Source of the DNA: Helicobacter cetorum | GTDB lineage: Bacteria > Campylobacterota > Campylobacteria > Campylobacterales > UBA6016 | Direction: 5' to 3' | Assembly (NCBI GenBank): GCA_022729705.1 | Contig: DZAX01000017.1 | Location: 1-44,460, forward strand | DNA: 44,460 nucleotides | In this document: one piece after another, positions 42,503-44,372 of the stretch | Numbering within the stretch: position 1 is the first letter of the stretch | Layout of the letters: every line of letters begins with the position of its first letter | Notes under the pieces: model-generated | Databases searched by the model: none | Told to the model about the DNA's origin: nothing | Seen by the model: only the letters and a program-made list of their open reading frames with translations | Translations under genes and position numbers: made by a program

Positions 42503-43699
42503 TTATCCGCGCTTAAGTCCAATAGCCTTTTGTATCATCTGATCAGCCGTTGTTATTACCCTTGCGTTTGCCGTGTACGCTTTTTCTGTAATGATTAGGT
42601 TTGTCATCGCCTCTGCTAGCGACACGTTGCTTGATTCAAGAGTGTTTCCTAGTATTTTACCCTCTTGAATTACGGCGCCGTTTGCGTCTTTGTAAAAAAT
42701 GGCTTGACCGCTGTTTTCTGAGACTGAAAATATAGTGTCGCTTACTTTGCCAAGACCTTGTTGGTTTTGGAAGTGAAAGAGCGGTATTTGCGCGACTATT
42801 TGACTAAATCCGTTATCAAATCCTGCAACTACTACGCCGTTTTGGTCTACATTGTAGGCTGTTAGATTTCCCTCTCTTACCGCCGGAACAGCGGGAGTGT
42901 CTACGTATGAGACTCTAGCCGTATAGTTTCCGGGTACAACGACAACTTTATTGTTTTCATCTCTAATATCCCATGTAAAAGTCTGCTCGCCCGCTTTTCT
43001 TGTGTCACGTATGAGTGTGTTTATCACATTTCCGTTTGAGTCTAGTATCTCTACTTTTGACGCAGCTTCTTTTGGTATGGTATATGTGATGTCAACCGAG
43101 CTGTTTTTTACGGTGACCGCTATATCCGGCGTTATGGTCTTCATTACCGCCGCTTTTGCGGGAAACCCTGGGTGAGTTAGGTTGCTTGGTAGATTAAGCG
43201 GTACTTGCGCCGCCGGATCTGTAAGCATATTTTTTGGCGCAACCGATGTAGCTAGCACACTTCCGCCGCCTTTGCCGTCTATCGTCATATTACCGCTGTA
43301 AGTTCCTACTAGCTTGTTTCCCGAGCCGTTTGTCACATCGCCGTTGGCGTCTACATAAAAAGCGCCCGCTTTGGTAAACAAAAGATTCTGTGTATTTTCA
43401 GGATCTTGTATTCCAAACCAGCCATTGCCGCCAATAGCCAAGTCAAGGGGTCTGTCTGTTGGCTGAAAGCTTCCCTGATTTTGACTAAGAGCCGTCGTTT
43501 GCGCAGTAACGCCAACGCCAAACTCATCCGCTCCGGTTAACAATACATTGGAAACCTCAGAGGACAAAAGAGTCGCAAACTCCGGCGTAGAAGAGCGAAA
43601 ACCTACGGTGTTGACGTTTGAGATATTATTACTCCAAACGTCCATACCAAACTGCTGTGATTTGGCGCCGCCAACGCCTGTATAAAAAGATGCCATCAT
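42503..43699 (-). CDS. flgE: Flagellar hook protein FlgE-like
   Basis: The 398-residue protein starts with the hook/rod motif FYTGVGGAKSQQFGMDVWSN and NISNVNTVGF, contains LDLAIGGNGWFGI, and ends with SNVSLAEAMTNLIITEKAY and NARVITTADQM, the helical D0 ends of the FlgE/FlgF/FlgG family. Two ATGs are adjacent at the start (43699 and 43696), and the AAGGAA spacing suits either. Residues about 203-267 (DSNGNVINTL...GEQTFTWDIRD...GNYTARVSY) form an Ig-like domain similar to the adjacent FlgD. C. jejuni has flgD-flgE in the same order. The protein is shorter than major hook subunits, so it could be a minor or accessory hook protein. Confidence 0.85.
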   Translation of the reverse strand: MMASFYTGVGGAKSQQFGMDVWSNNISNVNTVGFRSSTPEFATLLSSEVSNVLLTGADEFGVGVTAQTTALSQNQGSFQPTDRPLDLAIGGNGWFGIQDPENTQNLLFTKAGAFYVDANGDVTNGSGNKLVGTYSGNMTIDGKGGGSVLATSVAPKNMLTDPAAQVPLNLPSNLTHPGFPAKAAVMKTITPDIAVTVKNSSVDITYTIPKEAASKVEILDSNGNVINTLIRDTRKAGEQTFTWDIRDENNKVVVVPGNYTARVSYVDTPAVPAVREGNLTAYNVDQNGVVVAGFDNGFSQIVAQIPLFHFQNQQGLGKVSDTIFSVSENSGQAIFYKDANGAVIQEGKILGNTLESSNVSLAEAMTNLIITEKAYTANARVITTADQMIQKAIGLKRG

Positions 43700-43709
43700 G
43701 GTAAGTTCC

Positions 43710-44372
43710 TTAAAATATCTCTTTTATTGTTGTAACGTCTACATATTTATTTCCGACTTTGAAGTATGCCTTAGCGCCGTCAACTTTGATGGACTCTATC
43801 GGATATGTTCCTATTTTGCTTGTCGCTGTGGAGCCGTCTGTGCCTGTGTAGCTCACTTTTGCAGTATATATGCCGTCAGCCATAGTCTCGCCTGACGTGT
43901 TTGTGCCGTCCCACCTGATGTTGTATACGCCGGCCGCTTGCGCGCTTGAACTGTATGTTTGTATTACGTTTCCAACAGAGTCTGTGATACTTACAACAGA
44001 GCTTGTCGTGCTTACTGGTAGATATACGTCAAAAGCACCCGCTTTACCGTTTGATAGAGCGATAGAGCTTAATCCGGTATCAGCCGTTTTGCCAATCGTG
44101 GACGCTAGGGAGAAGTTGGCAGACGTTTGGAATGCTTTTGTCATATTCTCCATCGCATCTTTTGTCGCGTTTTGCGCCTCAAGAGCTGAGAGTTGACTTG
44201 TTTGAGTTAACATCTTATCGGAATCCATCGGGCTTGTCGGGTCTTGATATTTTAGCTCCACCAAAAGAAGTTTCATAAAATCTTGTGATTTTAGCTCTGC
44301 TTTTGGATTTGAGGCTGTTGTATTAGAAGAACTGCTTACCGTTGTGCTTGTATTTGTTATTGCTGAGGACAT
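43710..44372 (-). CDS. flgD: Flagellar hook assembly scaffold FlgD
   Basis: The 220-residue protein has a Ser/Thr/Asn-rich start, the FlgD N-terminal motif QDFMKLLLVELKYQDPTSPM and LSALEAQNA, then a FlgD-type Ig/tudor region (about 115-180) with DSVGNVIQTY, NIRWDGTNTSG and DGIYTAKVSY. FlgD caps the growing hook and guides FlgE polymerisation, then is released. It precedes flgE by 10 bases and follows a gene whose end is at the window edge. A short GGAG ribosome site lies before the ATG. Confidence 0.95.
   Translation of the reverse strand: MSSAITNTSTTVSSSSNTTASNPKAELKSQDFMKLLLVELKYQDPTSPMDSDKMLTQTSQLSALEAQNATKDAMENMTKAFQTSANFSLASTIGKTADTGLSSIALSNGKAGAFDVYLPVSTTSSVVSITDSVGNVIQTYSSSAQAAGVYNIRWDGTNTSGETMADGIYTAKVSYTGTDGSTATSKIGTYPIESIKVDGAKAYFKVGNKYVDVTTIKEIF

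Follow-up and report, generated by a model that had tools for sequence, protein, structure and literature searches.

A FlgD-type Ig-like domain in the outer position of a FlgE1 paralogue encoded next to flgD

The DNA analysed here, referred to as the window, is a stretch of 44,460 nucleotides from a Helicobacter cetorum assembly (contig DZAX01000017.1). At its right end, two flagellar genes follow each other, and the question they raise is how the protein encoded by the second gene came to contain an Ig-like domain of the type found in the protein encoded by the first. The first gene, flgD (43710..44372, minus strand), encodes a hook-cap protein of 220 amino acids that matches the Pfam families FlgD (61.6 bits) and FlgD_ig (64.8 bits), and its structural model matches solved FlgD structures. 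The second gene, a FlgE paralogue that we call flgE1 (42503..43699, minus strand), is an intact open reading frame (ORF) of 398 codons. An earlier note on this DNA described the two genes as adjacent, and indeed only 10 bases separate them on the same strand; the sequence AAGGAA can be read 6 bases upstream of the flgE1 ATG.

The FlgE-like protein matches PF00460, PF22692 and PF06429 over their cut-offs, and hence has the intact D0/D1 ends of the FlgE/F/G axial family. Its N-terminal D0/D1 half (residues 1-175; 43175..43699, minus strand) is covered by Flg_bb_rod and LlgE_F_G_D1, both over cut-off, and by conserved columns in an alignment of 31 FlgE1 proteins. The C-terminal D1/D0 half (residues 276-398; 42506..42874, minus strand) matches Flg_bbr_C with 56.7 bits, and the conserved columns of this part of the alignment begin at G277. 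The general model TIGR03506 is matched with 208.8 bits (cut-off 70.25), whereas the NCBIfam FlgE equivalogs stay below their cut-offs among the best 25 of 29 families, the best of them with 177 bits of 469 and flgE_epsilon with 155.8 of 412.85 bits. We then considered a tree of the D0/D1 regions of 32 FlgE1 and 12 FlgE2 proteins and one FlgG, for whose long branch the program issues a warning. The FlgE1 and FlgE2 proteins form separate clades (supports 100/98 and 99/97), and the window protein falls in the FlgE1 clade together with the flgD-adjacent FlgE of Campylobacter jejuni. Its gene lies directly after flgD, the usual place of this paralogue in Campylobacterota, and the order flgD, flgE1, flgE2 is found in many relatives. 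Moreover, the genome contains a separate FlgE2-type ORF of 739 amino acids that runs into a contig end. A published study (PMC5069557) found that the C. jejuni hook consists of FlgE2 alone, without the Cj0043 product. Because the window protein belongs to the FlgE1 clade, a separate FlgE2-type ORF is present and the C. jejuni hook is built of FlgE2 only, the label "hook subunit" that the earlier note had given it is probably mistaken, and the protein is probably a FlgE1 (Cj0043-type) paralogue rather than the main hook subunit. The FlgE2-type gene of this genome lies on another contig (G000:C50:1-2219, locus L100), and in two related loci, L042 and L043, a FlgE2-type ORF is present directly 3' of flgE1.

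The similarity between the two neighbours is confined to an Ig-like domain. In FlgD it spans residues 108-178 (43839..44051, minus strand). In FlgE1 it takes up the D2 position, residues 190-270 (42890..43132, minus strand), as delimited by PF13860, profile comparison and predicted structure; the core of the Pfam match is at residues 197-266 (42902-43111, minus strand). Both proteins score above the gathering score of 27 for PF13860 (FlgD_ig), FlgE1 with 39.2 bits and FlgD with the 64.8 bits given above. BLASTP aligns residues 213-268 of FlgE1 with 124-178 of FlgD (22/56 identities, 39%; E 2e-6), an alignment that covers the stretches in which the Ig-like likeness was originally noticed. When the FlgD Ig was shuffled 2000 times, no shuffle attained the score of the real pair (z 12.9). 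The Ig domains of FlgE1 and FlgD are thus homologous by sequence profile. In the whole genome of 2.19 Mb, PF13860 (E up to 0.001) is found only at the flgD and flgE1 loci, and the FlgE-like protein has no match (E up to 1) to PF03963, the N-terminal region of FlgD. FlgD_ig is also present at the equivalent place in the FlgE1 proteins of the related loci L041 (interrupted), L042 and L043, with 38.4, 64.9 and 60.1 bits, respectively.

An AlphaFold2 model of the window FlgE1, computed with 23 FlgE1 proteins in the alignment, has a mean pLDDT of 81.3 and a pTM of 0.68, with pLDDT values of 77-86 for the blocks covering residues 191-270. Its best matches are FlgE, FlgG and FlgF chains, with Z up to 24.6 for FlgE. 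Residues 190-272 match FlgD of Pseudomonas aeruginosa (Z 9.2 over 78 residues, 2.6 A), and also the FlgD chains of H. pylori (Z 8.5), Salmonella (Z 8.4) and Xanthomonas campestris (Z 7.8); among the matches listed, all others confined to these residues have Z 5.8 or lower. Several unrelated matches with Z 8.4 to 5.6 span about residues 1-398 and are not assignable to one part of the model. Foldseek alone also returns a FlgD (3osv; E 3.8e-5), and it matches the model of the window FlgD (mean pLDDT 70.6) to FlgD chains. Structure prediction therefore bears out the shared domain: residues 190-272 of the FlgE1 model have the FlgD Ig fold, a reading in which a Z near 8 would weigh little without the sequence match.

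Is the Ig an addition to FlgE1, or does it stand in place of something else? In 28 of the 31 aligned FlgE1 proteins a different outer segment lies between the conserved P171 and G277, and it is at this very place that the window, L042 and L043 proteins, and likewise the interrupted L041 protein, have the Ig. The alignment was made without L028, L033, L041, L051, L055, L066, L067 and L070-L076, which are incomplete, duplicate or near-identical, and without the FlgE1 proteins cut at the ends of several genome-search loci. With Pfam at E up to 0.1, 3 of the 31 proteins have a FlgD_ig match, the 28 others having none, and 7 match FlgE_D2 (PF07559). None of the four Ig-bearing proteins matches the latter family at E up to 1, an absence that, given the 7 of 31 matches, they share with most orthologues. 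In a profile comparison (hhalign), the FlgE1 Igs, a profile of only four similar rows, match the 40 FlgD Igs with 99.4% (E 5e-21) and the D2 segments of the orthologues, represented by the 17 of 28 shorter than 190 amino acids, with 0.5%; FlgD Igs against D2 segments gave 1.0%. Since the FlgE1 Igs join the FlgD Igs and not the D2 segments, and the predicted structure matches FlgD, the Ig of the window FlgE1 is a domain replacement and not an insertion.

The Ig-bearing FlgE1 proteins comprise four sequences, one of them interrupted; the three complete ones stem from the window's family, which is represented by three genomes. Their rows form one clade inside FlgE1 in the D0/D1 tree (100/99), and therefore a single gain of the Ig suffices. 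Locus L042 belongs to the metagenome-assembled genome (MAG) Campylobacteraceae 2016_B01_C_14, and its FlgE1 is letter-identical to that of G122. L041 and L043 both belong to the MAG Helicobacteraceae UBA6016, which, judging from identity and place, would be the same genome as G121. This MAG has two flgD-flgE1 loci, which may stem from two strains or be two sets, with FlgE1 proteins that are about 90% (L041) and 61% (L043) identical to that of the window; in the interrupted L041 protein one residue is read as unknown.

We then analyzed from where the FlgE1 Ig was acquired. When no outgroup was included, the tree of the Ig domains united the four FlgE1 Igs in one clade (100/100) and, separately from them, the four FlgD Igs of the same family (100/99). 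With six Pseudomonadota FlgDs added, the 40 Campylobacterota FlgD Igs group together (98/95) and the FlgE1 Igs fall outside, as they still do after six rows are dropped (36 FlgDs; 99/87). These trees are based on 87 usable columns and have long branches, and they were made without the FlgD of L077, whose insert splits the Ig region, the FlgD of L076 not being in the FlgD set. The branch uniting Campylobacterota FlgDs and FlgE1 Igs against the outgroup has a support of only 78/75. A forced sisterhood of the FlgE1 Igs and their own FlgD Igs is not rejected (AU p 0.359, 0.346 and 0.191), and neither is a forced group of these two with the Sulfurimonas-type FlgD Igs (p 0.295). On the proposal that the two domains might be sisters, the trees thus set the FlgE1 Igs apart from the FlgD Igs, yet sisterhood withstands the AU tests.

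Pairwise scores give a similar picture. The Ig of the window FlgE1 scores FlgDs of its own family about as high as other Campylobacterota FlgDs (means 80.5 versus 80.3), and so does that of L041 (79.2 versus 79.7), whereas those of L042 and L043 favour own-family FlgDs (116.8 versus 100.7, and 108.2 versus 99.9). Among the 40 FlgDs, the best own-family FlgD ranks 7th and the own neighbour 13th for the window Ig; for L043 these ranks are 2nd and 14th, and for L042 the window FlgD is 2nd and the own neighbour 4th. The identity of 39%, these ranks and the outside position of the FlgE1 Igs in the trees disfavour a recent copy from, or gene conversion by, the neighbouring flgD. The honest reading is that the FlgE1 Ig goes back to an old event and is not a recent copy of its neighbour, while sisterhood to FlgD cannot be rejected; its source may have been elsewhere, or an early flgD. 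Of the domain copying put forward in the earlier note, homology, adjacency and transfer between the gene families stand, but a direct copy of the own neighbour does not, as the FlgE1 Igs lie outside.

A second case of sharing was detected when 56 FlgDs were compared with 56 FlgE1 proteins, including some truncated at locus ends. The pairs from a single genome that passed the limit of E 1e-4 were those of L042 (the Ig), L076 (E 1.8e-12) and L077 (E 1.3e-7); the window's own pair lies above this limit in the comparison. The FlgDs of L076 and L077 contain an insert of some 85-95 residues, placed after the apparent first Ig strand and immediately before the main FlgD_ig match; it is similar to part of the FlgE1 encoded next to it (33.6% and 29.2%). 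This insert matches a profile of the FlgE1 module from 15 other loci with 94.1% (E 1.3e-7), and four distant FlgE1 modules alone with 23% (E 9e-4), and no control profile exceeded 7%. The module is shared by FlgD and FlgE1 in L077 (2912-3994 and 4001-5623), L076 (2989-3993) and L107-L122, and it is recognisable in the FlgE1 of L012, L018, L029, L052, L057, L061, L062 and L105. The Campylobacter genus that includes G092 was represented by 49 genomes. In 16 of them the module occurs both in an ORF of 335-372 amino acids (FlgD) and, at a distance of about 1.2 kb, in one of 542-561 amino acids (FlgE1). In a further 18 it is restricted to an ORF of 544-554 amino acids, judged by size to be FlgE1, and no module match was found in the remaining 15.

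In a module tree rooted on 8 other FlgE1 proteins, the 18 FlgD modules, two of which are repeats (L077 = L107, L076 = L114), group together (100/100) and lie, relative to a branch with 99/97 support, on the side of Campylobacter; the program notes that the bootstrap had not settled. Grouping the FlgD modules with the lari-type FlgE1 is not rejected (p 0.263), and neither is a position outside all Campylobacter FlgE1 (p 0.376). Because the module is widespread in FlgE1 and occurs in FlgD only in one Campylobacter clade, presumably the C. lari group, to go by the C. volucris label of L077, it apparently moved from FlgE1 to FlgD, opposite to the window case. L076 is titled Campylobacter jejuni isolate_S4; its FlgE1 pairs with that of the C. 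volucris L077, it has the same FlgD insert, and it is possibly misnamed. An N-x-Y-L-P motif is found both ahead of the FlgD insert and ahead of the FlgE1 module, and might be a junction marker.

Together, the two cases suggest an exchange of outer domains between the neighbours flgD and flgE1, and transfer between the two gene families gains weight from the second, apparently opposite case in Campylobacter. The reading that we regard as fairly probable is that the window protein is a FlgE1 with standard D0/D1 in which the ancestral D2 was swapped for a FlgD-type Ig through recombination with a flgD-type gene, and that it is a minor axial subunit with the Ig as an outer spacer. The replacement would have taken place in the common ancestor of the small family, leaving the D0/D1 core for export and polymerisation in its standard form. 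Adjacent genes, a common export route and exposed outer domains could make flgD and flgE1 tolerant of such an exchange. As a minor axial subunit, FlgE1 might be placed close to where the rod meets the hook; its Ig would act as an outer-shell packing or spacer domain, as D2 does in hooks, and not as a cap-docking device; as D2 is the outer domain, the Ig most likely packs outside the FlgE1 layer.

A more far-reaching reading is that flgD and flgE1 swap surface domains repeatedly and in both directions, because their products are partners at one stage of assembly and matched outer domains are selected; for example, the FlgD cap might begin its work on a layer formed by FlgE1. We put this forward tentatively, as a rather doubtful possibility.

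It is also conceivable, and in our opinion unlikely, that the Ig was acquired horizontally or taken from a FlgD_ig protein outside the flagellum and that the neighbourhood of flgD is coincidental. The outside position of the FlgE1 Igs relative to the Campylobacterota FlgD Igs agrees with such a source, and a Cupriavidus FlgD scores 133 with the Ig of the L042 FlgE1, for which the best Campylobacterota FlgD scores 134. However, the FlgE1 Igs score other Campylobacterota FlgDs higher than the six Pseudomonadota FlgDs (means 80-101 versus 57-81), and the second sharing between flgD and flgE1 makes a coincidence less likely. PF13860 was found in 109 of 121 Campylobacterota genomes, with more than one match in eight, those of the window, G032, G040, G052, G082, G091, G113 and G118. 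Among the extra matches, those of G040 and two of the three of G118 were examined, and there FlgD_ig occurs in ORFs without FlgD N-terminal or FlgE parts: two in G040 with three matches (909 and 346 amino acids; L098 1775-4501 and 4514-5551) and one in G118 with two matches (1384 amino acids; L099 1049-5200). The remaining extra matches lie in ORFs of 2603 amino acids (the third of G118) and of 922-3810 amino acids (G032, G052, G082, G091 and G113). Against such a source, the window's own genome has no third FlgD_ig. In the six single-match genomes examined, mostly those with long ORFs (G034, G041, G043, G051, G083 and G099), the match is in FlgD and the fetched part of the next FlgE1 contains no Ig. 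Beyond Campylobacterota, sampling was that of a plasmid collection, where 207 records had a match; the FlgE proteins of two of these, from Curtobacterium and Acetoanaerobium, have no FlgD_ig. Among the sequences examined, FlgD_ig in FlgE1 thus occurs only in the window's family.

The earlier note had further suggested that the cap might use the shared domain to mimic the subunit or to dock onto it, for which the same domain in both proteins and the adjacency of their genes would speak. According to the account of docking in PMC8595650, however, most of the docked cap occupies the central cavity over the D0 and D1 domains of FlgE, whereas the Ig of FlgE1 is in the outer D2 position, and 28 of the 31 aligned FlgE1 proteins lack a FlgD_ig match altogether, which makes such a function in assembly very unlikely. 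Finally, it is extremely improbable that no domain moved and that a D2, much altered, came to resemble the FlgD pattern by convergence. The Ig does share the position of D2 between the D1 halves, and the MAFFT alignment pairs short parts of the two, but the profile comparison (0.5% to D2, 99.4% to FlgD Ig) led us to reject this reading; moreover, PF07559 is missing (as in most orthologues) and the structure matches FlgD chains.

The replacement of D2 by a FlgD-type Ig in FlgE1 and the module in Campylobacter FlgD single out FlgD as the likely functional or recombinational partner of FlgE1. Both cases illustrate how one axial protein of the flagellum can receive an outer domain from another, and natural swaps of this kind could reveal replaceable parts of FlgD and FlgE1. 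A search of titles and abstracts of open-licence literature, which is weak evidence, did not yield a description of a FlgD-type Ig in FlgE or of a FlgE1 module in FlgD.

Compared with known systems, the window protein resembles the Cj0043-type FlgE1 paralogues in its D0/D1 core, its place after flgD and its clade, and differs from them in that its outer segment is a FlgD-type Ig; it is also shorter, with 398 amino acids versus 415-656 in the 28 aligned orthologues without Ig. Among solved structures its best sequence match is PDB 5npy (H. pylori, titled FlgE2; E 1.9e-33), which we take to be HP0908, with the C. jejuni hook just behind (E 3.6e-33). For C. jejuni FlgE1, 5npy ranks eighth, and it is at most a candidate orthologue of the window protein. 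In sequence family and predicted fold, the Ig resembles the C-terminal Ig/FnIII-like domain of FlgD (PF13860; PDB 3osv, 4zzk, 7eha and 3c12). In FlgD itself, according to PMC8595650, this Ig belongs to a tudor/fibronectin hybrid that follows a helical stalk, whereas in the window protein it lies between the D1 halves of a FlgE, with no match to the FlgD N-terminal region. The outer domains of hook proteins are described in PMC5069557 as hypervariable, differing in size and structure between bacteria. The window case differs in that the new outer domain can be assigned to a family, that of the cap protein encoded alongside.
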